From the NCBI GenBank assembly GCA_949152475.1, contig OX424560.1, positions 43,168,719 through 43,232,718 on the forward strand: 64,000 nt of DNA. Direction: 5' to 3'. Shown in pieces: positions 21,001 to 54,200 of this stretch; the stretch's first letter is position 1, and the number at the start of each line of letters is the position of its first letter. Both the position numbers and the translations under genes were made by a program. The notes under the pieces are model-generated. The model made no database searches. It saw nothing but the letters and a program-made list of their open reading frames with translations, and was not told the origin of the DNA. Origin of the DNA: Terebella lapidaria. Taxonomy: Eukaryota; Annelida; Polychaeta; Terebellida; Terebellidae.

Positions 21001-24000
21001 AATGAGACCTATAAGACAATTATGCAATTACATGTATTTGACGGACAAACTTGATACCCCTAAGACTATCTGTCTATAAATGTCTGTTTTGCTCCAGGTC
21101 GCACTGTTTCCGAGGTATCGATGAAAATGAAAAATACCAGGTCAGGGTCAAAGTTCCTCCCTAATACCCTTAAGACATGTTTGTCTAGGGCGACGAGTCT
21201 GAAAATAATGTCCGTTTCGCTCTACGACAGACCGTTTCCCAGATATCAACGAAAACGAAAAATGCTGACTCGGCGAAAAATTTACGGTCAAGGGCAAAGG
21301 TCATCCCTAATACCCTTAAGACAAGTTTGTCTGGGGTGACGAGTCCGAAAATATCGTCCGTTTCGCTCTACGACGCACCGTTTCCGATATATCGATGAAA
21401 ACGAAAAATGCCGTCGCAGTGAAAAAAATCAACGGTCATCCCTAATACCCTTAAGACATGTTTGTCTAGGGCCACCAGTCCGAAAATAACGTCCGTTTCG
21501 CTCTACGACGCACCGTTTCCGAGATATCGACGAAAACGAAAAATGCCTACTCAGCGAAAAAAATTCAGGTCAAGGTCAATGGTCATCCCTAATACCCTTA
21601 AGACATGTTTGTCTAGGGCCACCAGTCCGAAAATAACGTCCGTTTCGCTCTACGATGCACCGCTTCCGAGATATCGACGAAAGCGAAAAATGCAGACTCA
21701 GTGAAAAAATATAAGGTCAAGGTCAAAGGTCATCCCCAGTATCCTGAAGACATGTTTGTCTAGGGCGACGAGTCCGAAAATAACGTCCGTTTCGCTCTAG
21801 GACGCACCGTTTCCGAGTTATTTTTGGACTCGAAAATCCTGGCATATCAAAGACGAGAAGTGGTTCATGATGAACTAGTGCATCTGATGGAAACGGAGAA
21901 TCAGCGTGTAGCACCAGAAGAACTCTTACTAAACAATGTTAAATTTGTTAAAATCATCGTTTTCATATGTCATTTTTCGACCTATTTCTCGGTATACAAA
22001 ATACACTCACAACAGGTCGAGCGAAAGGATTGTGCTGTACGGCAAATAGCTAGTGAGGCACTTGGGTGCACTGAGGTGTTTGGGATTATGAATCTTCAGC
22101 TCATTGCATTCATCTCACAGAAAGTATAGCCATATATATTCTCATTATTTTGACCACAACAAAGAATGAATATATGCAGCAGTCAGTATTTGTCAAGCGG
22201 AACGCACGAATGTTCGTTTTGGTGAAACAACGTATAAAATGATTTATCTAATCATCAATTTGCACAGCTTCCGTGATATCATTCATGAAACCATGTCTCG
22301 GTTGATCATCCACGAGTATATGTTTGTGTGCTAGCCAAGTTTTAGGTCAGGGGATTGTATCGTCTTGGTGATTTTGTTACCTTTACTTTCACATTACGTG
22401 CAATCAGTCACTAACTCTGACAGAAATGGCCTTGACATTGTTGGAGACTCCATTCTTGTCAGCAACTCATGAAATACCATTCACCATCTGAAATAAAATA
22501 ACATTGTTTTATATTGACAAGAACAACAGTAGAAATCATGTGCTCGACATTGACTAACCTTTTGTTAGCCACTGAAACATGAAATTTCCTACCGTCTAAT
22601 TGACTTTGTCACATTTGAATGACGATCGACTGATTGAAGGATCAAGCTCGTGACTCGACTCTAAAGTTTCACACTTCGACCAAAGAAGGGCGGTGCGGAT
22701 AATACACTGAATGATAGGTTTCTCCTGAGAAATTGAGTCTGAAAATCTATGGTAGCAGATTATCTCTCGTGAAAGACGTTACGATCTAGTGAAAATTGTC
22801 TGGTGTCCTCCAATCTAGGACAAATCTATCTCGGGTCTGTGTCACGCTGTGCCAGTCAGTACTCAATGTCCAACTTTGAATTGACCTCAGACTATTTTAG
22901 TATTAATGCTTCTGAAAATGACAGGGGTATGTAAGTGGATTTATGTCGTTCAAAATGACAGACAGGTCTCTGATCTATTCATAAAAGCTCTATATAAAAA
23001 CTGCAATTATTAATTATGTTCCAGAACTGTTCCTTTTATGATTTGGTGAAATGTTTACCACTGCAGGCACCGGGTATGGTATGGTATCAGGCCAGCCAAC
23101 CTACGACTCTATGACGGCTAGTGCCTCTGCCTACGCTGCCTCTAATCAAGCCAGTGCTTACAGCTACGCCAACCAAGGTGCCCATGTGTACAGCGGGACC
23201 ACACAGGCTGCCTACCAAACCGGCGGATACGGCTCCTATGGATATGACCCTAATGCATACAGCCAGGCCTACTCTGCATATAGGTGTGCTTCTAACAAAT
23301 GTTTGGGTTACATCAACTATAACTGAAATTTCCCCGTTCACGTAAATAACCATGTTGGAATATCAAGCTTTATGAATTTTTTGCAGTGGTTATGACACCT
23401 CTGGGTATGGCACCACAACGCCCTACACCGAAACCGCCAGCTATCCTGACACGACCACGTACACAGACGCATGGAGCAAGGACCCGCCCCCGCCCCCCGG
23501 CGTGACGGAAACCAGCTATAGCACCTCGGTCGAGGATCAACACACATCCAGCTGGAAAAACTACCAAAGCTCCAAGATCAAGATCAAGAAGAAAATCCCT
23601 CCCTCCACGCCTGGTGTATCCGTGTTGACCAAAAAGTCATCGAACATGGTCCCAGCTTACAGTGAGTCTTGTTAAGGCATTTCGGCAGAAATGCCTTTAT
23701 GGTTTTAGCAGAATTTTTTTTTTTTTTTTTTTTTTTTTCTTCTTCCGCCACTTTTGGTTTCCGGACGATAACTTTAGATTGCCTTGACGGATCCTCGTCA
23801 AATTTTCACCACAAGTCAGAAATGATATGTGGAAGAACCCTATTCTTTTTGAGCCGGATCCGAGGTCCGTGAGGTCCCTGAGGATGAAATCAAGGCTAAT
23901 TTTGAGACTTGGTTTCCGGACGATAACTGGAAAAATATTTACGCAATAGTTGCAGAACTCCGCATGGAGGTTCATATGCCACCAGGGAAGAACCCTATTG

Positions 24001-26617
24001 ATTTTGGGATCGATCCGTCAAACGACCTTTGACCTAGAGGTCGAAATAATTTTTTGCTGATTCATCCTTGAGGCTTCCTGCATATCTCAGAAACCGTGCG
24101 TCGTAGAGCGAAACGGACGTTATTTTCAGACTCGTCGCCCTAGACAAACATCTCTAGGGTGTATTATTTTTTTTGATCCGGCTCCGAGGTCCGTGAGGTC
24201 CTTGAGGATGAAATCGAGGCTGATCTTGAAACTTGGTTTCCGGACGATAACTCGAAAAATATTCAGGCAATAGTTGCAGAATTTTGCACGGAGGTTTATA
24301 TATCAACAGGGAAGAACCCTATTGATTTTGGGATCGATACGTCAAGCGACCTTTGACCTAGAGGTCAAAATAATTTTTTGCTGAGTCATCCATGAGGCAT
24401 CCTGCATATCTCGGAAACGGTGCGTCGTAGAGCGAAACGGACGTTATTTTCGGACTCGTCGCCCTAGACAAACATGTCCAAGGGGTATTATGGATGAACT
24501 TTGACCTTGACCCGAAATTTTTTTGCCGAGTCGGCATTTTTCGTTTTCGTCGATATCTCGGAAACGGTGCGTCGTAGAGCGAAACGGACGTTATTTTCGG
24601 ACTCGTCGCCCTAGACAAACATGGATGAACTTTGACCTTGACCTTGAATTTTTTTGCCAAGTCGTCATTTTTCGTTTTCGTTGATATCTTGGCAACGGTG
24701 CGTCGTAGAGCGAAACGGACGTTATTTTCGGACTCGTCGCCCTAGACTAACATGTCTAGATGGTATTATGGATGAAGTTTGACCTTGACCCGAAATTTTT
24801 TTGCCGAGTCGGCATTTTTCGTTTTCGTCGATATCTCGGAAACGGTGCTTCGTAGAGCGAAACGGACGTTATTTTCGGACTCGTCGCCCTAGACAAACAT
24901 GTCTAAGGGGTATTATGGATGAAGATTGACCTTGACCCAATTTTTTTTTGCCGAGTCAGCATTTTTAGTTTTCGTCGATATCTCGGAAACGGTGCGTCGT
25001 AGAGCGAAACGGACGTTATTTTCGGACTCGTCGCCCTAGACAAACATGTCTAAGGGGTATTATGGATGAACTTTGACCTTGACCCGAAAATTTTTTGCCG
25101 AGTCGGCATTTTTCGTTTTCGTCGATATCTCGGAAACGGTGCGTCGTAGAGCGAAACGGACGTTATTTTCGGACTCGTCGCCCTAGACAAACATGTCTGA
25201 GGGGTATTATGGATGAACTTTGACCTTGACCCGAAATTTTTTGGCCGAGTCGGCATTTCTCGGTTTCGTCGATATCTCGGAAACGGTGCGTCGTAGAGCG
25301 AAACGGACGTTATTTTCGGACTCGTCGCCCAAGACAAACATGTCTAATGGGTATTATGGATGCACTTTGACCTTGACCCGAAATTATTTTGCCGAGTCGG
25401 CATTTCTCGTTTTCGTCGATATCTCGGAAACGATGCTTCGTAGAGCGAAACGGACGTTATTTTTGGACTCGTCGCCCTAGACAAACATGTCTAATTGGTA
25501 TTATGGATGAACTTTGACCTTGACCCGAAATTTTTTTGCCGAGTCGGCATTTTTCTTTTTCGTCGATATCTAGTATATATTATAAATTAATCATCACACC
25601 GAAATGCCTCCAAGGCATCTTTAGGCCTTGACGTCTAGTTGGGATTGTAATAGCCTCAGCATACAGTGAGTCTTGTTGGGATTGTAATGGCCCCAGCATA
25701 CAGTGAGTCTTGTTGGGATTGTAATGGCCCCAGCATACAGTGAGTCTTGTTGGGATTGTAATGGCCTCAGCATACAGTGAGTCTTGTTGGGATTGTAATG
25801 GCCCCAGCATACAGTGAGTCTTGTTGGGATTGTAATGGCCCCAGCATACAGTGAGTCTTGTTGGGATTGTAATGGCCCCAGCATACAGTGAGTCTTGTTG
25901 GGATTGTAATGGCCCCAGCATACAGTGAGTCTTGTTGGGATTGTAATGGCCTCAGCATACAGTGAGTCTTGTTGGGATTGTAATGGCCCCAGCTTACAGT
26001 GAGTCTTGTTGGGATTGTAATGGCCCCAGCATACACAGTCTGGAACATTGCGCATTTGAGAAAAAAAAACCTCACGTAAGGACGTGAGAATATTTTTACG
26101 CTAGATAAATTCCTGTCGGTTAGGCAGGAGATTGTTTCTCCCGCCAGAGGCAGCACTTGCGATCAAGGTGTCCATGAATTGCCCAAAATTACATCAATGC
26201 TAAATACATTCACCAGGTGGCGCAATACAGGAAGATTATCAGTCAAAAGAACACCACGCAAAATCGTTAGATTTGCAACTGTTTTCAACATACAAGTATC
26301 TATATATGTGATTCCTGGCGGTGGACAAATTTCACGGCTTGTTATTCACAGTTCCGGTGGGGGCGGGATCTAACACCGACTTAGTTGCCAGATTCTCCTG
26401 CCACTAGTAGTTCAAATCAACCCCCATCCCCTCACCTTCCCGGTCTACCACCAACTGAAACAAGTTTATATCAGCCGTGTACATAATGACCTGTCTTTGC
26501 AAGCTAGCTTATCTAAAACAGAATGTTCAGTTTAAAAAATCTCGACGGCATCGTGTCACTTCGACTGTGTCAGATCGGAAGATTGGTATATATTCGCCAT
26601 TTTCATCCTGTGCTTTT

Positions 26618-26648
<31 letters not shown>

Positions 26649-29600
26649 GTGTGAGGTTTGCAAGAACAGCCTTTCATTGGCTAAGCAGATAAACTACGTC
26701 ATAACTTATGAATAATTAACCAGATGGTGTCCCCCCTCCCTCACCCGCCTCCCACATGTATCAATATCCAACATTCAATGCACATTCATCAATAAATATT
26801 TATTAGGGTCGCACCCACCCCTGGAAAAAGCCTGAAGAACCCCTGGAGTTATATTTAACGGGAATCTAAACAGTCCTTCAAATATCGTAGGCTTTGACTA
26901 GTATGTCAGCATACGACCTCTCCCCCCCCCCCCCCCCCCCATCTCTGCCAGCACAGAGAATGGTTACATCACCCGTGTAGCCTATTAACTGTGGAGGTGA
27001 ATGGGAGGGTTCGTTGGCAACAGAGCATCCATCCGTCTGTGTGTGCAGTATTCACATGCATTTACAGTAATAGTCGAGTTGCGGGTTATATCCCTTCCAT
27101 AGTGAACCTAGAAATTGTTGAAACAGCAAGGTTTTTTGATTGATATGCATTCATATGTGTCTCCAGGTGATTTTGAGCTTTGTTGGCACTGCGCCAACTT
27201 TGGGGAAAATTTTTTATTCGTTAATTAGCATACTAACCGCCAGATATGGATAATTAGCATAATCAAAATATAACTTTTTTAGTAATAGGCCTAGAATCAA
27301 GCGTGATATCACTTTTCTATACAAGTCTGACCCAAGCATTTCATTTCTGGTGAAACTTTTGTGATCCATGGTCAAGGTCACCACATAAGATCAAGATCAA
27401 GGTCAGTTTTCACACAAACTTGTCAAAACTTCTGGATTAAGGGGATATGGCTATTTTCTTGTATTTCTAGATTTCACTGATTCACTCCTGTGTTTATGTA
27501 ATACTGCTAAATGAATGCCTTTTGAATTAACTTGAAGATGGTTCAATAATTACTGATGTGCAACATATCGTTGACCAATATTCAAACAGGCCTCATCGTG
27601 GCGTTGGCTTGACATGTGGCATTGATGTGATCTACAGAGTTGCTGTTCGTAGTTTCCTATAACTCTCGTCATTATTTGGTGCGCACAAACGATATAATCT
27701 GACTATAATGTGTCCATTACTGTCCATTACTGCTTGATCAATTGCTCATCCTCACTGTTCACTACCATCTTCTCTTTTTAGGACAACGTAAAAGCGAACA
27801 TCACGAACCGGTTCACTGTGCATTTGCAATATGTGCATGTTCTTAACAGTCAAGGTCCAGATAGGCCTCTGTTGATACAATGAGATGAAATATCATCTTC
27901 CATTTCCCAAATATAATCTTATATGCTGACATCTAGAGGACACAATTTTCAACAGCATAGCAGCATAGATGAGTAGGAGGCCTCTGAAGTTACAAGTTCT
28001 TGTCTGGCCGAGTTAGTGACACAATAGGTAGCGGCTTCCCCTTCTCTCGACATACAGATTATCACAATTTTTTTATTTGTTGAGGTATCAATCGGTTGTC
28101 AATAAGGCACTGCAATAACATGTTCCCTAACTGGTCCGAAGTTGCTTCTGTTGCATTATCCTCACCCGTAATGTCGAACAGTTATGAGAGTCACCTTTCT
28201 CCAAAGTCGGGCATCTTGCATGAAGAAGCTGGTGTCTCAAGCCGTTGATTCTCTCTGTCAGGTGGTCAGAGTTCTCAGTGACTACACTGATATTTCAGTG
28301 CTTCTAGTTATTGGACGTGTGTGATGTGATCTACAGAATTGCTGTTCCGATGAAGAAGTAGGAACGGACTCGATGCAAACGTCACATATGCCAACTTGGG
28401 AGATAGGCTCTGCTCCCAGCTGCTTGTGCCTATGCGACTTGTTGTGATATTGTGTAGTATCCATTTACCAAAGCAAGGTTTCATTCCTGAAGAAGCTAAA
28501 GACTCTGCACATGCTAGATGAGGACAGTGCAACAGAAGCCGTTGTTGGACAGCAGTTGTTTTGCAGGTGTCATATGGGTAACGGATTGATACTTCAATGA
28601 CACAAGTCTCTCAACCACGGACATATGACAACTTGCCCCTTCATGGGTGCTGTACTCGGCTTCATATGCTGCTATTGTAGGCAGCTGACAAAATGTGTTC
28701 AAAGAATATGGTTAGGAATATGAAATATGGTTGGGAAATGACAGATGACATTGTATAAGAAGAGGCCCACCTGGACCACCAATGTTGATGAGGGCCATCA
28801 GTTGCGGCTGCTGAGCGAAGGATAAGGCCTGCTAGGATACCAGCTGCGGTTGTCACCATCAGAACTGAGCCGAACCACATATTTTTTCTGCAGGTGACGA
28901 TTGTTATAAACTGTTCAGAAAAAAAAGATAAGGCGGTGGTGAACAGTGTGGATGGGCATCAACAATAATGAATTTGTACTGTAGAGTAATATCGGCATGC
29001 TGGGAGATGATAAATTGGATAGTAAGTTTTCTTGTACAACTTTACAGCCGCAGCTGATCACAGTAATGGACATGAAGTTATGAGTCCAAAGAAGCAGTCA
29101 ACTCGTACTGTTTCCATTACTACCATGAACGCTAAAATCGTGGTAATTTGTTTCAATGCTACGTCCAATGTAAAATGGATATTTTCTGTCGAATGTTTCA
29201 CCCTGTGTTGACCTCATTGTTTAAAAATGTAGTGAATGCTTGATGGGTCATGAATTGACTTTATATATTACTGGCAGTTGCACCGTTTGATGTCATTATT
29301 GCGTAGTTGAAGCTAAATGTTGTAAATCTGAAGCCACGTTTGTTTACAAAACGATATTCTCTGATATTTATTCTAACTCATTTACATCGTTTATTTTTGA
29401 GATGCTTGACGATATTGTATTATAATTTGGCATACTTCATCGGGCAGTAGAATGGCACTTTTTCAACGAATCTCAGACCTCTATAACAAAAATCGACTAT
29501 CGACCCAATACGAATTTCAACCCAAACAGAAATCTGATCATATTCCAGTACATGTAAATGGTCATATTTACATTTACCACAGTAGGAAGTATTGTTGTAG

Positions 29601-32600
29601 TTTTGGAACAAAAAACACATTAGGTTGTATCCTACACAAACATATTCATTTTGTACAAAAGCAAGCAAATACACAAAGTTTTAAGCGAACCAATAAATTC
29701 AATGATGGAACTGAAATTAATATTGGGAAAGAATTTTGCGATAGAAGTCTGAAATTAGGTAGGAAATTTCCGTTTGACTTTGCTCAGAGTGAACATTGCT
29801 CAATGGTTTATAACACATAAGTAATCAATACACAATTACAGGTAACAATTATCATTCCAACAATGCGAACTACACATAGAAATGAAAAAGTAAAATCAAC
29901 TGGTGTGGATGAATGTCCATATCCCCTAAAACCGGGAATTTTGACAATTTCGTGTGAAAACTGACCTTGACCTCGATCTTATACGGTGACCTTGACCTTG
30001 GGTCACAAAAAAATCACCAGAAATGAATTCCTTGGGTCAGACTTGTGTAGAAAAGTGCTATCACACTTGATTCTAGGCCTATTACTAAAAAAGTTATATT
30101 TTGGTTATGCTAAATATCCATATGTAGCGGTTATTATGCTAATTAGCGAATAAAAAAATTTCCCCAAAGTTGGCGCAGTGCCAACAAAGCTCATAATCTC
30201 CTGGAGACACATATGAATGCAAATCAATAAAAAAACCTTGCTGTTTCAACAATTTCTAGGTTCGTTGTCTGGCAACTGGACTATAATGTACAGACTTGCA
30301 CAGGGCCGCGCATTGTCGAGGCAGGGAGTGCCATAAATCGTACATTTGAGAAGCAAATGATGTGTATATATTTAATTGATTCTGTACCTACACAAAATGG
30401 CATCTTTACAACAATGACAGAGACTACTAAGCATACCAGTATTATGGAACTATCTAGAATATAGACTGGTATTTTATACAAATATCAGTCAATTTACCCT
30501 TGAATATTGAATTTGGTGTTTGCAAAGAACACAAGTTATGTTTTATATTTTATATTAAATTTTGGACAAATGTTCATCAACCGTTATCATGGTAGTTAAC
30601 AATTATTTTGGAGAGTGCAGTTAAGCCCCACAGAAACTTTTCTTGGTCAAATTGTCTCCAAACGCCCCTGGAAAAAAAAACCCTGGCAAATTACACATAA
30701 CACTCCTCAAAAAAAATTGTGGGCTTGTTAATTAATCAAGTTTCACATCATTTGTAGCACACTTATTACTTAAGACATCAATAGTGAGAGAGTAAGCATG
30801 TTAATTAAGTGTTACTTTATTTGTAGCACACTTATTACTTAAGACATCGATTGTGGGAGAGTATGCATGTTAATCAAGTGTTACGTCATTTGGAGCACAC
30901 TGATTACTTAAGATTTTGTTTCAGTATGACACGTTCAATGATCAAAATAATTGTTCAATGTAAACGTGCATGTCAAATTACTCAATTGTTGAATATTTTG
31001 GATCAGTTTATCCATAAAATATCAAATTTGTTGCTGTTTGCACGATAGTGAAGGATTGGCTCAAGTTAATGGTCTGCACCCAACTGACGAGTCCTGGACA
31101 GACTGTATGGGCCACTAACGTATAACGGGACGAAACACAGCCAATAATTTGGTATTGTAAATAAACAATACGTATGTGAAAATAAACATACAATAAAGTG
31201 TGAATTTATTGGCTGTGTATTGGGGATTTCCTCATCGAATACAATTGAATGGATTTGCTTGACTCAGAAACCCATAAGAGAGATGGGTTTCTGCTTGAAT
31301 GTACAAGGGATATGAAAATGAAATGACCTCTTTTGATCAGATTGTAATACTAGTACTTACCATGCTGGATTTACTGGTCAGGTTTCTCTGAGCAGCAAGC
31401 ACCTCATGTATGTTTGGGTGTGTGAAGTTGGAGGTAAGGGTGATTATACACACTGTCCCTTTCTCCACAGAAATATATTGTGTGCTTGAAAGATGTTGTT
31501 CATCCATCTCTCCCTCTGTCCGTTCAGATACATGTTCATGTATGTGAACACTGCTCTGTCATGATATTTGTTGCAGTTTTCTATCTTCAACTCGAATCAA
31601 AAGTTACTCAGGTATAATCTTTTTAGACACATTGATGTTCTACGAGTTTCTGCTAAGATACGCAGTGGGCCTACATATTAATGGATTATAAGGAAATGGA
31701 GACTGTGTTCCTTTTTACCACACGTTTTCCACTTTGTTCGATTTATTGAAAACTGTACATAACTATTGAGTCAAGTCACCTACATGTAATCTTCTCTAGA
31801 TATATATTCTAAAATATCGAATCAATTCAAATGTAACTGTCGGGCGAAGGTTAACACACGTACACGTATATGTACTTGTGAATCTCTATTGGTTTCTGCA
31901 TACGATGTGCAGGGTTAAGGTGTTGAAGTCAGTATGGACAGCTCTACTCGATGTTGCTGAGTATCAATTTCATTGATAACCAACGTTTTCCATTCACGAA
32001 GGAGTTAACCGTACACTAGTAATGAATGTTGTTCGGATATGTATTGTCCTCAACTTTTGGCGATCTTACACAGTTACATTAGTGTCTAGTCATCATGAAA
32101 GCGTTGAGTAATCCGTGAGTAAAAAGCTCATGTAATTGCGTCAGATTTCTGTTTCGACCCTGTCAAAAATTTATATAGCAAATGAAACAAGTATGACGGC
32201 ATCAGCCGCTTCAGTATGGATCCGAGTCGACTCTTGTAGTGAATTTGGAATATGATATAGTAATGAAAATTCTCTGGTAAATTATCAAAGAACTACTACA
32301 TTCAAATTTTTTCCTGTTGGGGAAACTAAAATTGAATTGTTTTACTGAAGTGAGTTTAGTTGTTTGTTTCTCTTACAATAATATAAAACATACTACTCCA
32401 TGTGTTACCATTTTATGCATTCAGAGTAAATAAACTACACTATTAAGAGCAACTGAATTGTTCATAACTTTGACATGAAACAAACAGATCACGGTTGAGT
32501 ATTACCAGTAACCAATCATTTCATTTTACGAGTATTGTAGTCTAATAGTGCCTGTTGATAATATACGTTAACGGATCTACATGTTCACATCGTCAATCGT

Positions 32601-35600
32601 AGTAGTTTGACTGTACAGTGTACTGAAATGCCTGTTGAAAGTTCGCTGCAAGCTCCATCATCATTGCACATTGTGCACAATTCACTTTGTAATATTTGTA
32701 ACAGTTCGATGATACACATGTGTGACCCAATAAGACTAGTATACTGTCCAATATTTTGTGAGAACTGAAATAATTTGGTCAAACTCATGTTAAACTGGTG
32801 TGTTGTCTTTTATGGAACATAGGACTGTAATATTAGGTTTCATCAGAAATACATAAAGAGTCTCTCTTACGTTTTTCTGGTTTCATTGATCGAACTTCAT
32901 TCCATAATTTCTACCATTTACAATGTATAGGATTCACAACAAAATTGCACAGTATTACATTGTACATACACGTTATTTTGGTTCAATACTTTATTTTTTT
33001 TGTCGTCCATCTTGATTGATTTCACATGCTAATTGTTTTTTGTCCCTCCTATCCACTTGTTTCTTAGTTTGTATGTAAAACCTTTCATATATATATTCTC
33101 AATCTGATTCTGCGGGGACTCTTGGGATTCCAATGGATGTCCAAACATATAGCTGCATTATGAGAGGCACATGCAGTGCACAGTTTTATCATAATTCTGG
33201 CGAGTACACCACTATTTCCAAATTTAGTCGTTGGTACATGTACATATAGAAGCCAAGGCAAAATTATACACCATTATGTCTATATATACACCTCGTGTGC
33301 ATCATTCAAACTAGTTTTTTTTTAGCTATTTAGTTCCAACGATATAAATTTATTGGCACTGAATATTAAACTTCAAAACGACTGAAATAAGTTCAACCAC
33401 AAACCCATAAGAGCTTATGGGTTTCTGGTTCAACGCGTACTGTGTATTTGTACCAAATGGCCTTGTGTATTGGGTGTTGTTTCTGGTCAGAGCCTATAAA
33501 CTTTTTGACCCAGCATGATAATGGCTCTGTCATGGTAAATGAGGGAAGCTCGGTTGGCGTCACGGTAACGACTCCATTTCGCATACCATGTACATCATCT
33601 GAAAACCTTTCTCCACTGGATCAATTCTCCAGGTTCCTTGCGTGTCTGAAAACTGAATGGGCTGTTGTCTTGTCTTCCCTGCGTTGGCTCTGTCACGAAA
33701 TTTCTCTTACGGGAATCCGAGAGAGAACTGCAGACCTTGAAGTTGGCCAGAAAACATACAATGCACACGCCACTAGCCGGCTTCTCGTCGGCCAAATCAC
33801 GTGCATCCTACAAATGTACAAACATACATTATATTCATCTGCAACAACAGAAAAACATGAGAGATCTCTCCTATGTATTTTTGGCTGCAGTGATACATGG
33901 ACGGATGGATGGACGGACGGACGAGCGGCGTCCCCTCTGGTCTTCTCTCCCTTTTACTTGCCGCCCCCTCGTCAGTACACAGAATCAAACGCACGCTTAT
34001 AACCAGCTATTCTGCTACCCGCCCACAAATCCCCCCCCCCCCCCCCCCCTCCTCCACCCCCATCAACTCCACCCCCACCATCGACTCGCACAGTCACTAA
34101 ACCATTGCAGCCCATTCAGCCATGGATTGTTCACGTACACACATTTCGGCAAAAGTCTGAGATGATCCAGGGAGGTAGTGCGTCGTGTTTGAATTTCCAG
34201 CAAAAGCGCCATCAGTTTATCATAACCCTTCTTAACTTTCACACTCACAACTTTCTCTTTTTTGCCTTACTGTTGCTCGTCAGGAAAAGCATCACCACAT
34301 CGTTTTGTCACTTATCCATGTCAGGGGAAAAAAATAATGTACTAGTAAACGCTGATCATTTCTAAATTGATTTGATCATGTCTATGAAAGTTAAATCGAT
34401 GAGTGTGTGTGCGTGTGTAAGCTACACTTGTACTAGTCTATCTCACACAGAAACTTAATGGTAGGTTATAAACTGGATAATCATATATATATACACATGA
34501 TACAATTGTAACTTAGTGGTTAGGTAAACAAATTCTATAATGAAAAACAGCAGTGGGTGTATTCTGGGAGTTGATTAGTGTTGATTTGACATGTAAGAAA
34601 ATTATTTGACACCAAAGAAAATTATTACATCATGTAGATCTACACGTTAACATCAAATCATCAAACTGCGTTCAATATTTCCAAAACACGATTTATACCT
34701 GCATTCCATCACTATCATGACTGCTGCATTGTTGTACCTTTTATGCAAATACACACTAAGAATTGAGTGAAAATAATTGCATGCATACTTTTGACAAACG
34801 GTATATATCAGTATATGTGTCCATGCCCGATGTCAGGATGTCACGTGTTGATTCTCGCAGTCCGCATTTTACGACATAGCGCGTCGTTTTGTTGAGATAA
34901 ACCTATAGTACATGATAGTATCCTACAGTATACCCCGATTCTATTGAACAGATTTCTTCAGAGTGCCTGAGAATAATTCATTTGATCAAGATGCCAACTT
35001 TCCCCCTGTTTCCAGGCCGGCACATGTTGGCAAATTTTATGTAGAATCTTCTTACCTGAACTAGTGACAAAATGTTCGAGTTAGGATTTTTCTGACGGGC
35101 ATCAATGTGGAATTGAAAAAAAAAATAGCCTTACACAAACTTGCTGGGGGTTGACTCTAGATAAATCCCAAGCAAGTTTGTACGACTTCTCGTGAAATAG
35201 CAGATTGAAATCGGGAGGTTGCTGCCATAAATCAGGTCTGGCCCCACATTTAGTGAGCTGATCATAATGCCATTGTCAAATAAGCCATTGTCACCCATAC
35301 AAACCCCACGGCTTTACGTGCGATAATTGCCACGCACATGTTTTAACCTGATTGACCTGCCACCTGGCGAATATCCACTGAATTACACAGTCAATTATAC
35401 CAAGACGGGCATCATGTTCGGCGCCCCTACGACATGACATATAACCCTACGACACAAGCAAATGCACTTAGTCGTCTTCATCGTGTTTCAATCTATCCAC
35501 AAACGAAACTTGGAAGATCTTAATGTACTGGAACAGTTTGAAATGCTGCTGTGAACATCACCGAAAACTCATCAAAATACCAAGAATTGACGTAGCAGCG

Positions 35601-36239
35601 TGAGGATTTTCTCAATGGAGAAAAAACTTGATGCTAATCCGACAGATATATATCTAGCGTAAAAATATTCCCACGTCCTTACGTGAGTTTTTTTTTACTC
35701 AAATTCGCAATGTACCAGACTGATACAGTGAATCTTGTTGAGATTGTAATGGCCTCAGCATACAGTGAGTCTTGTTGAGATTGTAATGGCCTCAGCATAC
35801 AGTGAGTCTTGTTGGGATTGTAATGGCCCCAGCATACAGTGAGTCTTGTTGGGATTGTAATGGCCCCAGCATACAGTGAGTCTTGTTGGGATTGTAATGG
35901 CCCCAGCATACAGTGAGTCTTGTTGAGATTGTAATGGCCTCAGCATACAGTGAGTCTTGTTGGGATTGTAATGGCCCCAGCATACAGTGAGTCTTGTTGG
36001 GATTGTAATGGCCCCAGCATACAGTGAGTCTTGTTGGGATTGTAATGGCCCCAGCATACAGTGAGTCTTGTTGGGATTGTAATGGCCCCAGCATACAGTG
36101 AGTCTTGTTGGGATTGTAATGGCCCCAGCATACAGTGAGTCTTGTTGGGATTGTAATGGCCCCAGCATACAGTGAGTCTTGTTAGGCATCCCGATTGAAA
36201 ATCGGGAGGCCTTATGTTTTTGTCTGTTTTTTTTTTTTT

Positions 36240-42200: not shown

Positions 42201-45200
42201 ATGGACATTTGTCTAGTGAGCAACTGCTATAATTTGAACTCTCACTCCCACCTGTGTTCAATAATCCTGGTATATGTATTATAATAACAGTCAAGTTTCA
42301 CCATTAGAAAAGAAAAGAAAAATTGGGGGATGCCACAAAGCCTATAGGCTTTTATGTCTAGTTGGGATTGTAATGGCCCCAGCATACAGTGAGTTTTGTT
42401 GGGATTGTAATGGCCCCAACATACAGTGAGTCTTGTCGGGATTGTAATGGCTCCAGCATACAGTTATTCTTGTTGGGATTGTAATGGCCCTAGCACACAG
42501 TGAGTCTTGTTGGGATTGTAATGGCCCCAGCATACAGTGAGTATTGTTGGGATTGTAATGGCCCCAGCATACAGTGAGTATTGTTGGGATTGTAATGGCC
42601 CCAGCATACAGTGAGTCTTTTTGGGATTGTAATGGCCCCAGCATACAGTGAGTCTTGTTGGGATTGTAATGGCCCCAGCATACAGTGAGTCTTGTTGGGA
42701 TTGTAATGGCCCCAGCATACAGTGAGTCTTGTTGGGATTGTAATGGCCCCAGCATACAGTGGGTCTTGTTGGGATTGTAATGGCCCCAGCATACAGTAAG
42801 TCTTGTTGAGATTGTAATGGCCCCAGCATACAGTGAGTCTTGTTGGGATTGTAATGGCCCCAGCATACAGTGAGTCTTGTTGGGATTGTAATGGCCCCAG
42901 CATACAGTGAGTCTTGTTGAGATTGTAATGGCCCCAGCATACAGTGAGTCTTGTTGAGATTGTAATGGCCCCAGCTTACAGTGAGTCTTGTTGGGATTGT
43001 AATGGCCCCAGCATACAGTGAGTCTTGTTGGGATTGTATTGGCCCCAGCATACAGTGAGTCTTGTTGGGATTGTAATGGCCCCAGCATACAGTGAGTCTT
43101 GTTGAGATTGTAATGGCCCTAGCATACAGTGAGTCTTGTTGAGATTGTAATGGCCCCAGCATACAGTGAGTCTTGTTGAGATTGTAATGGCCCCAGCATA
43201 CAGTGAGTCTTGTTGGGATTGTAATGGCCCTAGCATACAGTGAGTCTTGTTGGGATTGTAATGGCCCTAGCATACAGTGAGTCTTGTTGGGATTGTAATG
43301 GCCCCAGCATACAGTGAGTCTTGTTGAGATTGTAATGGCCCCAGCATACAGTAAGTCTTGTTGAGATTGTAATGGCCCCAGCATACAGTTATTCTTGTTG
43401 AGATTGTAATGGTTCCAGCATACAGTGAGTCTTGTTGGGATTGTAATGGCCCCAGCATACAGTGAGTCTTGTTGGGATTGTAATGGCCTCAGCTTACGGT
43501 GAGTCTTGTTGGGATTGTAATGGCCCCAGCATACAGTGAGTCTTGTTGGGATTGTAATGGCCCCAGCATACAGTAAGTCTTGTTGAGATTGTAATGGCCC
43601 CAGCATACAGTGAGTCTTGTTGGGATTGTAATGGCCCCAGCATACAGTGAGTCTTGTTGGGATTGTAATGGCCTCAGCTTACACTGAGTCTTGTTGGGAT
43701 TGTAATGGCCCCAGCTTACACTGAGTCTTGTTGGGATTGTAATGGCCCCAGCATACAGTGAGTCTTGTTGGGATTGTAATGGCCCCAGCATACAGTGAGT
43801 CTTGTTGAGATTGTAATGGCCCCAGCATACAGTGAGTCTTGTTGAGATTGTAATGGCCCCAGCATAATTTCGTAGTGTTCTTTCTTCTAAATGATGACAA
43901 CTCTTTCCAGTTCTGACACGTCCTTTATTACTCGTAATTCGTCGTTATAAATTAACACAATTCAAACATGATGGTACTTGGCCGATGGACGCCAACTCTC
44001 TCCTTGAAATACAAATTTTTGACCGCCAACGCGGGTTTACATGAATATTCATTACCTTTAATTGTTCAGGATCCAATCCTGACTCAGGAAGACATATCCC
44101 CTTTCAGATTCATGAATAAAGTTTGAATACAACCAATGATCGTCATTGTTTTGTGGGCTGATACTACATGAATTACAAAGTTTGGCGCGTCGGTCGTTTT
44201 GACACTTGACATCTCTCAGTTACATTTACTTACAAGAATTAATCCGATGTACATGAACAAATACACAAGTTATTAAATTGTTCTTAATCTTCAAATCACT
44301 TGTATACAATAATTATAATTTTTTTGATCTATGATAATTGCCCTTCGTTTAATTTTTGAATCTCCTGATTCAATTCTGATGACAACACACAGAATCTGGA
44401 ATTTTATGTTATATTTTCTAAACTACTTCTACTTTGTACTTTCATCATTCACATCCATGCTCAGATCTATGATAATACATATGATTGTTACAACTATGAC
44501 ACTTGCATGGAAACTTGATTCTTGGTACATGTACCAAAACATTTTACTACTCAATCGGGTATTTCAGCTATGTAGATATAGCTACCCATTTCATAGCACC
44601 ATCGTATGACATTGCACACTTCAATGTCGGAAACACCAGTCCGTTCTTGGACTTCACTCCCATAACTCCATATATAAGCATGTAAACATTTCATGTTTGT
44701 CACCAATAAAACAGTAGTACGAGTACAAGTTGGATGACATGAGACATTCGAAAGTATGAGTTGCTCATTATGACAAAATACAGTCAAGTTTGTCAGATTA
44801 CACCTGAAGATACAAGATTGTACAGAGAGAGAAAAATTTTAGTGAATTTTGATGCGCTGCCTAAACTGACATATTTACAATACAAACTGAACATTCAGAC
44901 ATAACCTGTCATAGGATAAGTTCTAGAAACAGACCTATGCTGATACTTTGGTACTGTACAATGTACAAAAAGTGGCAACGATGACAGCAGAATACAAGGT
45001 ATCGCACATTTCAAACAATCTCACATGAATGATTACAATTATTCAGCTCAACCTGAATATTATTGGGAACTACATGTCCTTTCGCCGTTTACGGCTTTTC
45101 CCTTTCTGGGTTTTCGTGACATGGAATTTGCGTATAACTTCTTCTGGAAGGTCTACGTCACGTTTCCACTCCGTTTTGGGTGTATCGACATACTTGGTTC

Positions 45201-48200
45201 TGTACCACTTGTGACCGTCATAGTTCTTGCATTCACAAAGCCTTTGGATTTCACGCTCTCGCTGTTGATCTTGTGTGTTGGTCACTTCGTCATCATCGGA
45301 AGACACAGTGGCATCATTAGGTGTGCTTGTGCCTTCTGTCTCTTCGTCATTTTCTTGCCGATCCTCTGTGGTTGGAGGTTGGATCTTTCTGCATGCCGCA
45401 TTGTTGGGGTCTTTGTACATTGTCATACGGTCGGCATTGACCCTTGCTTTCAGTTGCTGGTGCGATGTACAGTCCCGCAACAAGTAAGTGTCATTTTCAG
45501 CAACATCTGTGATGTAGTATGGGCCTGTGTTCTTGGGTTGCAACTTTGGGTTTAGACCGATGGTTTTGTTCATACGGCTCAGAACAACCAAATCTCCCAG
45601 ATCGTAAGTTGGCTTTTTCGCCTTCTTGTCATGTTGTTGCTTGTTTCTTGCTTGTGCTTCGGCGATATTTTCTTTTGCGATTTCTCGTGTGATGTCAAAC
45701 TGCTCAGTGATATGCTGAAGATGGTCCAGGACACTCTGGCCTAGGGCTAGATTTGGCACAAGGGCTGTGTCTAGTGGCAAGCGCATTTCCTCACCCAACA
45801 GGATCTTATAGGGGCTAAACAATGTCGAGTTCGTTGATGGAGTTGCTCGCATTGCAGCCATCACCGAAGGCAGAATGTCTGGCCAATTCTGTTGGTTCTT
45901 ATCCACATACATTCTCAGGGTCTGGGCGAGAGTTGCCATTCTTCTCTCTGCTGTGGCATTCGTCTGTGGGTGGTAACTGGATGTAGCGAGTTTAGTGATC
46001 TGGAAAATCTTGCACAGTTCTCTGACGATGGTGGAGAGAAAGTTGGTCCCTCTGTCGCTCAACAATGAGTACGGAGCTCCCCATCGGCAGATGATTTCAT
46101 CATACAACACTCGGGCTATCTCCGATCCCTTCAGAGTCTTGATCGGGAATGCCTCCGGCCACTTGGAAAACGCATCTACCACCAGCAAGACGTACTTGTA
46201 CCCTCTGACCTCCGGAAGGGGTCCGAAGAGGTCTACATGGATCCGCTGGAAGATGCCATCGCTGTGTAGTGGTTTCAGGGGTGCCTTGGTCTTGTGGGAC
46301 TTGTTCTTGTTCATCTGACAGCTCCGACATGATGACACGTACTGCTTAATCTCGGCATACATTTTCTTCCAGAAATATTTCAGCCTTATTAGGTGATAAG
46401 TCCGGTCGAAACCTTGGTGTCCTGCCAGAAGGCTGTCGTGATATGACCGCATCACATCGTCTTTCAGTGCTTCTGGTACAACGAGCTGTTTGATGACCCG
46501 GTTGGTTCGTGTACCTTTCCCGCGGGGATAATAAAGGTGGTACAGGAGGTGATCGTCAGGGTCCAGCACATAGTCGTTGCTCTCCAGGATCAGTCTCCGT
46601 GCTTGGTCGTTTGTGACACCTTGTGGGAGGTCCCCGGAGTCGAGATACTCTATAATTTCCCCCAGATCTGGGTCTTGTTCCTGATGGTCTCGAACAGATC
46701 CTTGGTCCACACTGAGTACGGATGCCAGGTGTCGCGCCGAGTTCAACTGGACATATCTGTGGTCGGCTTCTTCTGGCCTGACTTCTGCTTCAGACGTGAG
46801 GGTCGCAACAATGGTGTTTACTTCCTGTACCGGCAGCAGCAAACTCGGAGCAGGGGTGTCGGTTGGTGGGTACTCCCTCCTGCTCAAGGCATCGGCATTC
46901 AGATTTTTCACGCCTCTCTTGAACTTCACTGTGAAATCGTATTGTTGCAAGAACAATGACCAACGACACAGACGTCCTGAGTCTAGCTTTACGTTCTTAA
47001 TGAACTGTAATGCTGCATGATCTGTTATGATTGTAAAGTGCTTGTCGGCCAGGTACACATGGTATTCTCGGACACCTTCTACTACTGCCAGTCCTTCCAG
47101 TTGAGTGATATGCCACTTCTTCTCCGAGTTCCTGAGGGCTCTACCTCCGTATGCGATGACGACTTCTCGGCCGTTCTGTTTTTGGCCTAGGATGTAGCCT
47201 ATGGCTTCGGTGCTCGCGTCGCAATACAGGATAAACTCGGATTCAAAGTCTGGAAGAGCTAGGACAGGCGGGCTCGAAAGGGTTGACTTCAGGGTCTCGA
47301 AGGCTTTATCGCAGGCGTCGTCCCAGTCGAAATTGACTCCCTTCTTGAGAAGGTTGTACAGTGGGGCTGCAATATTTGCGAAACCTCTGCAAAATCGCCT
47401 GTAGTAGGTACAAAGACCGAGGAATGATCTCAGCTGTGTTAGGGTCTTCGGTTGCGGAAACGTCTCGACTGCTCTCGTCTTGGCAGGATCTGTGGAAATA
47501 CCCTCTTGTGACAGCACATGGCCCAGGAATAATACACGCTTCCTTGCAAAGTTGCATTTCTGGGGTTTCAACTTCAAGTTTGCTTGTCGCAGAGTGGAAA
47601 AGATCTTCTCCAGGTGTTGCAGGTGGTCGTCCAGGTTGTTGGAGTACACCAGGATGTCGTCGGCGTATACAATTGAGTAGACATACAACATGTCTCGTAG
47701 TACTCTAGCCATGACAGCGCTGAATACCGAAGGACTTTGGGAGAGACCGTACGGTAGACGTGTGTATTGGTAGACGCCGTGGTGTGTCACAAAGCCTGTT
47801 TTGTGTTTTGTCGCTGGGTCAAGCTGGATCTGCAGGAAAGCTTGTGACAGATCAATCGTGGAGAAGACAGATGGCTTGTTCTTCCCAAGGGCATCAACCA
47901 CATCATTGTGTCGGGGCAGAGGAAAGTAGATCGGCTTTATGACTTTGTTGAGGGCCCTGTAGTCGATTGCCATTCTCCAGGTGCCATTCGACTTCTTTGC
48001 CAAAACTACTGGCGAGAGCCAATCACTAGTTGACCTTTCGATGATTCCCGCTCTCAACAGGTTGTCCACTTGTCTCTCTATCTCAGCCTTTTGAGCCGGT
48101 GAGGTCCGGTAGAATCTGGACTTGACGGGGGGACTGTCACCAGTGTCGATATGGTGTTGATGGTCTTCATATTTGCCAACGTCCAGTTCATCCTTGGAGA

Positions 48201-51200
48201 AGACATCTGCGTTCTTTCCCACGATCTCTAGAATCTTGTTCTGGTCTTCTGCGGTCAGGTCTGGTAGATCTATGGACAGCTGCTTTGCTTTGTCGATGTA
48301 TCGCTGACGCTCTTCAGTAGGTGTCATACTAGGGTCAGACATCTTGGCTTCTGTACACTTCTCTTCGTATGCCAGGAGCACGTCGACATGCTGTGTACTG
48401 TGTGATGTTCTGGGTGGCGTCTGCTTCGATGGTACAAACTCAGGAGCCAGTGGGTTCAATGTTGCTGTGTTGTTTTTGTCACCATCTGATCTGATGTGGG
48501 AGGGCATGTCTGACATATGAATTAGATCTGTGTCACCCGTTATGCGTGTAAATGTACCCACAATGGCCTGACTTGGGATTACTGTGTCAGTCGGCATTGG
48601 ATTTAACAACCGGTAACAACATTTACCATTCTGTGGCCTTACAGCACATCTGGGGCCAGTGACCTGCAGGTTTTTCTGCACAGACATTGTTGGCTCAATA
48701 ATACCATCTTCATCAATACATACATGCACACTTTTTCGTTTTGAGATGGCAACAGGCAACAAAATTTCACCATGACCTGGTACAATTACATCACCAACTG
48801 TTTTCACAAAGCACACTTCATTTGATGTATTGCCGTTTTCTAGGCCAACTGTCACCATACCTTTCTGTAGTGATACAATATTGTCAATAAAATTCCAGTT
48901 TGCTTGCTGGTCTCTGAGAAAATTTTCTCCCAGAATTACACCTGCAATTTTACTCTCATTATTTGGCAGTACAACAAACACTTGCCATAATTTCAGATCA
49001 CCAACCTTGATCGGTAGTGCCACTTCACCAATAACATTCACCATATGTCCACCTACACCAACGATAGATTTCACATTTGACGGTGTGATTGTAAACCTCT
49101 GGCAGTGACAGCTTTTATATGTTTGGTGTGAAATACACGATACTGAGGCACCAGTATCCAGTAGTGCCGAGACACTGCTACCATTTAGTGAACATCTTAA
49201 GCGATTGAATTTATGTACATTTGTGTCTATTGACACTGACACACGAACATCATCTTTTGCATTATTTTCATCATTTTCAGCATTGATATTTACATATTTA
49301 CAGTCATTCATCTGTTCTTGCGGTCGGTGCTGTGACTTGGCCTGCTGTTTATTCGGCCGCGGCCGCTGCGGCCTGCCCACAGGGACAGGCGAATGTCCCT
49401 ATGTCGTCGTGTTCGGCCTACGCGAAAAGCAGGCGGCCTTGAAGTGGTTCCTTCCCCCGCAGCGGAAGCACGTTTTACCATCGGCGGGGCAGCTTGCTCC
49501 GTCGGCGTGGTCATAGCTGCAACGCGTGCACCTTTTACCGGCGTTCGGGGACGGTTCTCGCTGGCGCTTTCTCGGCCCGTCAGATGAATCTCGTTGTCGC
49601 TTTTGGTGCGATTTGTTGTGGCCCCTTCTCACCTCCTTGGTCAGCGCAACGACCTGCTCTTTTAGGCTCGCCAGCTCGCTTTGTGGTTGGTCGTTGCTTG
49701 TGGCGGCGACGGTGGCGACCTCGGTGGTGTGTGTCGACTCGACCCCTTCGACTAAGATGGCGTATTTGTGCAGGTCTTCAAACGTGTCGAAGCTTTGCAG
49801 TAGGACCTGCTTCCTGATGGCTGGAAGCAGTCCTTGCAGCGCAATGTCAATTTTATACTCGTCCGGTTTTCCAATGAGTGTGCATTCAGTCTGGATCACT
49901 TGCAGATATTGTTCTACGGACTCGCCTTTTTGTTGTTTTCGCTGCATGAGTGCTTGTACCTTGGCCAGTTTCTGTTGCTTGTTAAGCATGTGGTGGGCCA
50001 GGAAGGCGGAGGACAGCACTTGCCAGGTCTGTTTGCACTCTGGTGCCAGGCTGTGGAACCAGTCTAGGGTTGTTGGGTTCAGGTAAAACTGAAGCGATTT
50101 CAACTTTGTTACCTCGTTCCACCCCTTGATGTCGGCAAACGTGTCATACATTGACAGCCAGTTTTCCGGGTTGTCACATTTTTCAAACATTTTATGTTTG
50201 ATGGTCGACTCACGTTGGGTGTTGATTGAGTTGGTTAGCGAGACCAACACGGATGACAGATCCGCGTGGTCGCTCTTGTTGTTGTTTATGTTCTCGTCGC
50301 CCATTTCCGCTTCTGATTGGTTAGAAGTTGGGAGTGAGGCCGTGACGTCGGCGGGCGGCTGTTGCTCTTGTTGAACTGCAGCTGGAGTCGACTTCTGTCC
50401 TCTCTTCGAACCGCTTCTGGTTAGCATTTCTATACACTTGTAGGAGAGATTTATGTCTGTGCTGTAATCCTTTTCAATTTTTCTATAGTCAATTGTTTCT
50501 GCGAGTTCTTGACTTCTTGTTGCAGTTGTTTTGTTTGATTTTTTTCGTGTCAGCTTCAATTATCCACGGAGGGTGGCGAACGGAACAGCCGTGCAATGCA
50601 GACCCGTGGCGGTGATTATCACCAATAATGGTCCCGAGATTTATGGCGGCGATATCCGATTTCGTGGTCGTATAAATGTTCTTCTCTTTGCGGTCGCTTT
50701 GCGGAGAGGTCTTGGGCGGGATCGTTGGAATTCCTCCACCAAATTTCGTAGTGTTCTTTCTTCTAAATGATGACAACTCTTTCCAGTTCTGACACGTCCT
50801 TTATTACTCGTAATTCGTCGTTATAAATTAACACAATTCAAACATGATGGTACTTGGCCGATGGACGCCAACTCTCTCCTTGAAATACAAATTTTTGACC
50901 GCCAACGCGGGCTTACATGAATATTCATTACCTTTAATTGTTCAGGATCCAATCCTGACTCAGGAAGACATATCCCCTTTCAGATTCATGAATAAAGTTT
51001 GAATACAACCAATGATCGTCATTGTTTTGTGGGCTGATACTACATGAATTACAAAGTTTGGCGCGTCGGTCGTTTTGACACTTGACATCTCTCAGTTACA
51101 TTTACTTACAAGAATTAATCCGATGTACATGAACAAATACACAAGTTATTAAATTGTTCTTAATCTTCAAATCACTTGTATACAATAATTATAATTTTTT

Positions 51201-54200
51201 TGATCTATGATAATACAGTGAGTCTTGTTGAGATTGTAATGGCCCCAGCATACAGTGAGTCTTGTTGGGATTGTAATGGCCCCAGCATACTGTGACCAAG
51301 CAGTAGCGGGCAATTTTTATTAAGTTTATATTAATGAATATTATTATTGTTATTACTATTATTACTTTATATAGTTGATATGTCGCATTAAGTATTTTTA
51401 CATCTATCATGTTCAAACTCAGTTATCTTGCTAACCATATTCAGAAAGGTAAATCTATCCTTGTACACATAGCTTCTGAGTATTGATCGGTTCCCGGCTC
51501 GCGTACTTTCAGGCCCCGAAACCTCCCAGTAGCAAACCCTGTATACCGATCAGGGTGATTAATGTCTTTTTCGCATTCAGGAATTTCTATCCATAGGACT
51601 CAGGAACACACAAAAATAGTTGTCTTCTGATATCATATCTTCCAAAATTACCAATTCTTCAAATGTTTAAAGTAACACAATCACGCTTTATAAATTCAAT
51701 TACCAATTTTGTAATTGTAATAAATCACATTCTGGATCTAAGAAATTATGAGATAAATGGCCGTAATAGCCTTGGAAACCCGGGAACTACTTTCTTTGTG
51801 TACGAGGATAACATAGCAAGATTGTAGTGCTGAGGCTTTGCTGTTTTGCAATGTGACGTAAGTTTTTGGCTATCCAGAGATCCTTATTCGGAATTGTGAA
51901 TACCATCCAACGTATGAATATCTATTCAGTTAAATTCCTTCTCAGTGATACAAAAAGCCCGAGGCCCCAGAAAACGACAGTGGATCTCCAGGCAGCATAG
52001 GCAACAACACCAAGCCTCCTCACATATACCATCAACTGTAAATTGTGAAGTTTGGAATAAAATAAACTCTTAATTTACCATCGGAAGCTGCCTAAGACTT
52101 TTTTATATAACCGACTCACCCCCATCGGTTATAATACAGTGAGTCTTGTTGGGATTGTAATGGCCCCAGCATACAGTGAGTTTTGTTGGGATTGTAATGG
52201 CCCCAACATACAGTGAGTCTTGTCGGGATTGTAATGGCTCCAGCATACAGTTATTCTTGTTGGGATTGTAATGGCCCTAGCACACAGTGAGTCTTGTTGG
52301 GATTGTAATGGCCCCAGCATACAGTGAGTATTGTTGGGATTGTAATGGCCCCAGCATACAGTGAGTATTGTTGGGATTGTAATGGCCCCAGCATACAGTG
52401 AGTCTTTTTGGGATTGTAATGGCCCCAGCATACAGTGAGTCTTGTTGGGATTGTAATGGCCCCAGCATACAGTGAGTCTTGTTGGGATTGTAATGGCCCC
52501 AGCATACAGTGAGTCTTGTTGGGATTGTAATGGCCCCAGCATACAGTGAGTCTTGTTGGGATTGTAATGGCCCCAGCATACAGTAAGTCTTGTTGAGATT
52601 GTAATGGCCCCAGCATACAGTGAGTCTTGTTGGGATTGTAATGGCTTCAGCATACAGTGAGTCTTGTTGGGATTGTAATGGCCCCAGCATACAGTGGGTC
52701 TTGTTGGGATTGTAATGGCCCCAGCATACAGTGAGTCTTGTTGAGATTGTAATGGCCCCAGCTTACAGTGAATCTTGTTGGGATTGTAATGGCCCCAGCA
52801 TACAGTGAGTCTTGTTGAGATTGTATTGGCCCCAGCACCTGTGAGGTTTTGTGGCTTTGTAGATGAGTGCTAGGTGTTGTCAGTAATCAGCCATATGATT
52901 TTGCTGGGGTTGATGGAATGTTCACATTTTGAGCATTATGATGTTTCAGAGGTTGATGGGATGGAAGTCGATGATGAACCTGATGACCCTGAGACTTTCT
53001 ACTGCAAAATCTGCGATATTGACTGTAAAACCTCTGGGGTAAGTTCTCGCGTGAGTCAGGTAACTACAGATGATGCAGTTTTAGTTTACATGTATAGACA
53101 ATATTTTTGCTTTTAGTCTTTTTGTATTGGTATTAGCATCCAGAGATACTCTCTGGTCAATAAAATGACAAAATTGAGATAATTATAATGCTGATAATGT
53201 GTTGTTGTGAGTACAGGGATATGTGAACCACACGCGTGGAATGATGCATACACAAAAGGCAATGGCTCTGGAGAATCCAAGTGCGGTCTCTGCTGCCGAT
53301 GATGACAGTACATTCCATGCTGCCATGGAAACCAACATCACTCAGGTATGGTTCCATGGATAGACTAAAAGTATAAAAGTATGGTGATCATCAGACCAGA
53401 GGTAATAGAAGCAGGCTATAAAAGTATCATGATCATCAGACCAGAGATAATAGAAGCAGACTATAAAAGTATGGTGATCATCAGACCAGAGGTAATAGAA
53501 GCAGGCTATAAAAGTATGGTGATCATCAGACCAGAGGTAATAGAAGCAGACTATAAAAGTATGGTGATCATCAGACCAGAGGTAATAGAAGCAGGCTATA
53601 AAAGTATCATGATCATCAGACCAGAGATAATAGAAGCAGACTATAAAAGTATGGTGATCATCAGACCAGAGGTAATAGAAGCAGGCTATAAAAGTATGGT
53701 GATCATCAGACCAGAGGTAATAGAAGCAGGCTATAAAAGTATGGTATCATCAGACCAGAGGTAATAGAAGCAGACTATAAAAGTATTGTGATCATCAGAC
53801 CATGGATAATGTATTACGTTGACAGGGCTCCCGATAGCGTAAAATAATGCGTAATTACGCATGACTTTTTGAAATTTACGCAGTGCTATCACGGCCAGTG
53901 CATATGATTACGCACTCGAAAGATTTGGGGAAACTAATTTAAAACAAGGACATCGATTTATTAGCTCAAAAAACGAAGTTCTAGAAAACAATCAAACAAT
54001 GTCAATTTCCGCCAAAGAGACGCATGCGCAATGCACTCGCTGGCGAATAAGTTGTGGGACACGTCATCAAAATTCGAGCACAACAAACTGCAGCGCCCTT
54101 GTGCGAATGGCTGCAACATCGAAAGCCTATGTGTGCGCCCCCTTGCGAATATAAATTTAAGGATTTCCCCACTTTCGTTTCTTCAACATGACTCGACAAT

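Follow-up and report, generated by a model that had tools for sequence, protein, structure and literature searches.

Gene and intron structure

The window analyzed here, a 64,000-nt stretch of the genome of the annelid Terebella lapidaria (contig C6, GenBank accession number OX424560.1, positions 43168719 to 43232718, in an assembly of 761.6 Mb and 438 contigs), contains a zinc-finger gene with one very long intron, which carries a 37-bp minisatellite whose unit matches the gene's own exon-intron junction. Seven predicted exons of this gene (A to G) join into a stop-free sequence of 336 amino acids, in which Pfam recognizes two stretches of zf-met fingers and two of the jaz type. No other family scored above the Pfam cut-off in these exons, and no homologue of the encoded protein was found in the protein collection searched. 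An identification as ZFR is unsupported by Pfam, which returns these fingers only, and we therefore refer to the zf-met/jaz zinc-finger gene.

The exon that would have donated the exonic part of the unit (positions 23387..23661, plus strand) has GT-AG borders, ends in ...GTC CCA GCT TAC A, and joins in frame with the six others; its end at 23661 is predicted from the GT-AG borders and the frame that stays open across all seven exons. The authentic donor, GTGAGT at 23662..23667 on the plus strand, stands in the context ACA/GTGAGT. The next exon (52950..53038, plus strand) encodes the start of a zinc finger and is likewise joined in frame (...VPAYKVDGM), which leaves an intron of 29,288 nt; the intron upstream of exon 23387..23661 measures 103 nt. 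The long intron closes with an unrepeated remainder of 112 bp (52838..52949, plus strand), with TTTCAG at its end. Near the start of this remainder, a segment beginning with GTGAGG shows a weak similarity to the unit, equalled in 3.45% of shuffled sequences and in 1.2% of random windows, a faint hint that the flank after the array might be the ancestral intron start.

The 37-bp array and its single locus

The unit combines about 16 bp of exon end, of which 14 of 16 positions are identical, with 21 bp of intron start. At a threshold of 26/37, the window contains 130 units on the plus strand and none on the minus strand; at 28/37, with the register fixed at the junction, there are 127. The authentic junction is itself unit 0 (23646..23673, plus strand), with 16 exonic and 12 intronic bases before the first insertion interrupts it, and it matches the unit consensus at 26 of 28 positions; the best 15 28-mers outside the array blocks, ranked by unit score, all overlap this junction. 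The sequence ACAGTGAGT occurs 107 times on the plus strand of the window, always in the array intron, and never on the minus strand, so that, besides the real donor, the intron holds 106 copies of the same 9-mer. Genome-wide, the unit has 123 matches with up to 3 mismatches on one strand (the total, of which 100 are the matches listed) and none on the other. The window alone accounts for 123, and these matches (123/123) include no second haplotype of the array. Certain runs of unit variants are common to blocks 3 and 5, and others to blocks 5 and 7, as expected under unequal exchange.

These data bear out the main claims of an earlier note on this DNA, namely, that a 37-bp unit is present in about 130 copies in the gene's own intron and that the junction was amplified in place, and the genome search adds that no copy lies outside the intron. 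The composition proposed there, exon end plus intron start, also stands, but with about 16 and 21 bases rather than 14 and 23. The statement that the array begins at the junction holds in that the junction is unit 0; the first block, however, starts only at 25639, after an insertion of about 1.97 kb in that unit.

Seven insertions in a formerly continuous array

Of the 29.2-kb span, the array accounts for about 4.9 kb, and seven insertions contribute about 24.3 kb. The first (23674..25638, plus strand), a Helentron-like element with a 147-bp satellite, sits at the TT of unit 0, beyond which the array continues in register; its ends are fixed by a second copy at about 18013-19623 of the window. 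Block 1 (25639..26035) comprises 11 units at 26/37 or better, the first of them partial; like all the blocks, it is on the plus strand. A DNA-transposon-like insertion of 9.7 kb follows (26036..35722), with inverted ends CAGTCTGG...CCAGACTG and ATACA flanking it on both sides, and separates block 1 from the 12 units of block 2 (35723..36183). The Helentron-like insertion 3 (AGGCATCCCG...GTCTAG; 36184..37575) uses the same unit TT as insertion 1 and precedes the 36 units of block 3 (37576..38932). Insertion 4, also Helentron-like (GTATCCCCCG...GTCTAG; 38933..40912), lies at the TT of a variant unit, CAGTTATT, and is followed by the 9 units of block 4 (40913..41253). Insertion 5 (41254..42361), again at the same unit TT, is a second copy of the family inserted at 36184, with the first 58 bases identical and another 411 bp at 92%; behind it comes block 5, with 41 units (42362..43866). 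The 7.3-kb insertion 6 (43867..51212, minus strand), with frames of 1442 and 386 codons, resembles a long terminal repeat (LTR) retrotransposon by frame size only. Block 6 (51213..51295) retains 2 units, insertion 7 (51296..52133) is a 0.8-kb piece, and block 7 (52134..52837) has 19 units.

All seven blocks pick up in one register across the insertions, and a few bases are repeated where the insertions entered. The four Helentron-like insertions lie at a unit TT; the three later ones end in TCTAG, and two of those share the TT of insertion 1. The Helentron-like label was given to the first element for its terminal CTAG, its insertion at TT, and the satellite that it carries. The array was thus formerly continuous, at about 4.9 kb, and is older than the insertions because its blocks resume in register; the insertions then lengthened the intron to 29.3 kb. 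The 147-bp satellite (18013-19623 and 23674-25638) is also seen in the introns of two myosin pieces (loci L062 and L064).

Decoy donors

Among the 127 units, GT is kept in 124, GTGAGT in 110, and the full ACA/GTGAGT in 105. The U1 duplex of the real donor has an energy of -5.7 kcal/mol, which is moderately strong, and 110 of the 127 decoys equal or exceed it. Deviation from the consensus amounts to 2.4% at the donor positions versus 3.5% in the rest of the unit, and 19 of the 37 rotations of the unit are as extreme; the decoy donors are neither purged nor specially retained and show no sign of selection. Past the real donor, the frame reaches a TAA 14 nt beyond the junction by direct read-through (...VPAYSESC, then stop), so that, as the sequence now stands, the full protein cannot come from an extended exon. 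Use of a decoy would be predicted to bring in a stop codon and to give an mRNA that is truncated or decays.

The picture of one real donor faced by about a hundred decoys is therefore accurate, with 106 identical 9-mers after the true site. The claim that nearly every unit presents a good 5' splice site is right in that most decoys equal the real donor, but "good" is generous for -5.7 kcal/mol, which is only moderate. Likewise, the decoys do span 29 kb, as had been stated, but most of that span is inserted DNA and only about 4.9 kb is array. The suggestion in the earlier note that many exon 3 variants could arise is not supported, given a frame that meets a TAA within 14 nt.

Junction arrays elsewhere in the genome

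An unrelated gene, a myosin on a second chromosome-sized contig, C8, carries arrays of the same kind. Its exon ending in ...QHYHYLNQ matches Myosin_head over 33 amino acids (E value, 1.6e-7; 30.5 bits, below the 33.3-bit cut-off), and a further exon at this locus reaches 157.7 bits. After the former exon, a 40-bp unit that represents its own 5' junction (39/40) is repeated 21.9 times; it is adjoined by 53.9 copies of a 74-bp unit that represents the 3' junction of the same intron (62/64 positions from -30 to +34; 63/80 if extended to +50). The two arrays make up this intron of 4,799 nt, and all 19 genome matches of the 40-bp unit (up to 3 mismatches) are found there. The direction from exon to array is clear in this case because the exon end fits the conserved myosin profile.

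Further arrays lie downstream of the 37-bp array on contig C6, where positions beyond the window continue its numbering; they may belong to the same gene, in which exons h0 to N would then follow exon G, or to a neighbor. At the acceptor of exon G (56106), a 32-bp array of 33.7 copies (55040..56110, plus strand) gives a moderate 3'-junction match (score, 22; 0 of 2,000 random windows as high). From the donor of exon K (74456) runs an array of a 41-bp unit, which matches this 5' junction with a local score of 32, a value that none of 2,000 random windows reached; all 9 matches of this unit in the genome (up to 3 mismatches) lie at that donor. The array of a 46-bp unit (about 107 copies) extends to the acceptor of exon M (90844) and agrees with this 3' junction at 29 of 32 positions. 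The pool of random windows took in the first 25 kb of the window and hence the junction at 23661 itself. The match of a 67-bp array before exon I is one-sided (intron side, 16/16; exon side, 3/16), that of a 32-bp array after exon H is weak, with about 2% of random windows scoring as high, and that of a 45-bp array after exon D failed, with 10% as high. Exons I to K had no Pfam match and no homologue in PDB. By our sorting, 3 clear cases and 1 moderate case among the 10 minisatellites near the gene and outside the insertions span a junction; this count omits two-copy repeats, simple repeats, periods above 100, repeats within insertions, and one 21-bp repeat in coding exon L. A second 37-bp minisatellite (TACAAGTGACTTATCTACATGTAGAG...) forms long stretches from position 7769 of locus L013 (91769 in the continued numbering) and again at 113000-114000; it begins about 200 nt past an exon and, by eye, is not junction derived.

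At 10 kinase loci (40 kb), no array touches any of the 18 matched exons; at 3 of these loci (L056, L058, and L060), arrays are present farther from the matched exons. Three other myosin pieces (L061, L062, and L064) have no junction array, only transposon-like satellites, and the one intron with two junction arrays is covered by L063 and L065; these pieces were picked for their long introns and do not provide a rate. Junction arrays thus recur in this genome but are not universal. Arrays of 69 bp and 31 bp were also seen adjoining a kinase on contig C17 (L028, positions 1-1223 and 3277-3751).

Origin of the array and choice of the splice site

We consider it probable that a junction-spanning minisatellite grew within a short intron and was later split by transposons and that exon definition picks the exon-proximal site. 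A tandem duplication across the junction, taking in the last 16 bp or so of the exon and the first 21 bp of the intron, would have occurred in an intron of about 110 to 135 bp, as judged from the remainder, and unequal exchange would have expanded it to about 130 units before transposons broke up and lengthened the array. Splicing would most likely still proceed from the first, exon-proximal copy, the closest pair of sites across the exon being favored when the downstream intron is long, and the decoys would be largely unused and drift neutrally. As long as the exon-proximal copy stays in use, a junction duplicate preserves the coding sequence. Near the gene, the seven introns that lack a minisatellite are 94, 103, 107, 145, 148, 153, and 178 nt long (the one of 153 nt carries a 14-bp repeat in two copies), and each of the five longer introns with both ends known contains an array, the one after exon D not being junction derived.

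The proposed choice of site follows published work. Between nearly equal sites, short introns favor the intron-proximal one and long introns the exon-proximal one (Carranza and others, PMC9225289); the exon-centric preference comes from minigene measurements with identical 5' sites, and the exon-proximal bias in human transcripts grows stronger where the upstream intron is short and the downstream one long (PMC9225289). Exon 23387..23661 is flanked by 103 nt upstream and 29,288 nt downstream. Such an exon-definition rule would fit 5' and 3' arrays alike. The suggestion that the first donor is used cotranscriptionally would suit the 5' arrays but, as a first-come rule, would not fit the 3'-junction arrays because there the real acceptor is the last copy to be transcribed. 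At the zinc-finger gene, we infer the choice of site, the neutrality of the decoys, and the direction from exon to array.

Several points weigh against this explanation. In human data, the stronger of the competing sites prevailed in 86% of events (PMC9225289), and 9 of the 127 decoys pair with U1 better than the real donor does. Exon definition in T. lapidaria is assumed, and the direction from exon to array is presumptive for the zinc-finger gene because no homologue of its exons A to G was found in the protein collection. The same rule would also make the first duplicate in a short intron harmful. This predicted harm is the root of a broader proposal, which we regard as possible yet doubtful, that junction minisatellites are a general, self-stabilizing route of intron growth in this annelid: a young duplicate would compete with the original site until the intron passes the exon-recognition length, the switch from intron to exon recognition being placed at 200 to 250 nt (PMC9225289), after which the exon-proximal site would win, the decoys would fall silent, and the intron would be free to grow on and gather transposons.

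The recurrence of arrays at several junctions, with one myosin intron affected at its two ends, could also mean that exon-intron borders are targeted, with an R-loop, nick, or slippage seeding the duplications there. A random tandem duplication of 32 to 46 bp in an intron of 103 to 178 nt was computed to span a junction in 30 to 61% of cases, the expectation for unit length u and intron length L being 2(u-1)/((L-u+1)+2(u-1)), and the 3 clear cases and 1 moderate case among 10 minisatellites fall within that range, so that no targeting is needed; taken with the absence of arrays touching the 18 matched exons at the 10 kinase loci, this makes targeting unlikely. Far less credible is a dispersed satellite, or transposon cargo, that by chance includes a donor. 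The genome does abound in satellite-bearing elements, but such an origin is rejected because the 123 unit matches in the genome are the window's own 123, all in one intron, and the unit includes the coding end of the exon itself; we give it virtually no weight.

Two further proposals assign the array a function. If a regulated fraction of transcripts used the decoys, gained the stop, and decayed, the array would tune the level of the zinc-finger protein, and both the stop within 14 nt past the real donor and the 110 of 127 decoys that equal or exceed this donor in U1 pairing are what such poison splicing would call for. The donor positions, however, are not conserved beyond the rest of the unit, and arrays are also present in an unrelated gene, the myosin, which renders this proposal improbable. 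Slightly more improbable still is a U1 landing strip (telescripting, described, among others, in PMC5499120), in which many 5' sites hold U1 on the long intron and suppress early polyadenylation and the array is kept to protect the 29-kb intron. The 107 identical sites on the transcribed strand, versus none on the other, agree with it, as do 20 occurrences of AATAAA versus a mean of 12.2 in base shuffles; ATTAAA, in contrast, is below expectation (6 versus 14.0), the array predates the insertions that lengthened the intron, and the 3'-junction arrays add no copies of a 5' junction.

Relation to known systems

The closest counterparts are the mirages of lancelets, reported in Adh3, troponin C, the globins BflGb6 and BflGb9, and PGBD5, with splicing described as undisturbed (PMC3087553, PMC3902484). 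As in those genes, the unit spans an exon-intron boundary and includes exon sequence (26/28 at the zinc-finger gene; 39/40 and 62/64 in the myosin), both types of boundary are affected (5' at 23661 and 74456, 3' at 90844, and one of each in the myosin), and many but not all units keep AG/GT (here, GT in 124/127); the turnover would also be minisatellite-like, the shared variant runs pointing to past exchange. Unlike BflGb6, which has 6 and 3 units in two haplotypes, the annelid arrays have about 130, 22, and 54 units; they belong to an annelid host, and in one myosin intron the two ends are both amplified. The gain of introns through tandemly duplicated AG/GT sites (Rogers; Venkatesh; Gao and Lynch, cited in PMC3087553) similarly involves a duplication that carries splice signals, but in T. 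lapidaria an existing intron grew and no new intron was seen. Intron 1 of earthworm metallothionein, with repeat monomers of 25 to 216 bp (means, 178 and 181; PMC12783039), is another long, minisatellite-filled intron of an annelid gene, for which, however, the text consulted does not describe a junction origin. Intron minisatellites of Caenorhabditis elegans have been tied to splicing regulation rather than to junction copies (PMC4039745), and human internal repeats have been associated with cryptic sites and new introns (PMC2812944). With the exception of the latter, no junction repeats outside lancelets were indicated in the titles and opening abstract lines of the open-licence PMC papers searched. 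The array is a lancelet-type mirage; within that compass, large mirages in an annelid are new.

Such arrays offer a natural series of competing sites with nearly constant strength and varying position, 106 copies of one donor 9-mer along with acceptor arrays, and make the choice of the correct splice site directly testable. Their presence shows that mirages, hitherto reported from lancelets in the literature searched, also occur in a remote phylum and suggests that short introns favor junction-spanning duplications.

Other observations

Read antisense, the 37-bp array contains open frames that overlap one another and reach 404 codons at most (minus strand, 25583-26162, 37559-38699, 42345-43944, and 52132-52869). 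The consensus unit read antisense is stop-free by hand, and the period of 37 gives a 37-residue repeat; these frames are probably a by-product.

Contig C438 is the 15,973-bp mitochondrial genome, with all placeable genes on one strand in the order cox1-N-cox2-D-atp8-Y-G-cox3-Q-nad6-cytb-W-atp6-H-nad5-F-E-P-T-nad4L-nad4-C-M-M, continuing with rrnS-V-rrnL-L-A-S-L-nad1-I-K-nad3-S-nad2. The 22 tRNAs were named by ARAGORN, which did not find a separate trnR, and COX1 was named by a family match; the other protein and rRNA names were read from frames and gaps. This order matches the annelid ground order, which identifies the host as an annelid and rejects a lancelet; a search for the GFP family gave no match, but it gave none in any control genome either and carries no weight. 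Two adjacent trnM genes occur in Terebellidae and Trichobranchidae, not in all terebellids, and a trnM duplication is also known from an amphinomid and a syllid (PMC9629097); adjacent trnM pairs were reported in a pectinariid and some sipunculids as well (PMC3282830). On these grounds, the annelid host is perhaps a terebelliform.

Several small contigs (e.g., C25, C110, C150, C186, and C363) carry kinase or myosin genes that are open only with TAA and TAG read as residues, mostly without TGA, and the assembly seems to include a ciliate-like companion genome. A second COX1, with TGA read through, is located on contig C417 (44633-46450) and perhaps comes from the mitochondrion of this companion.

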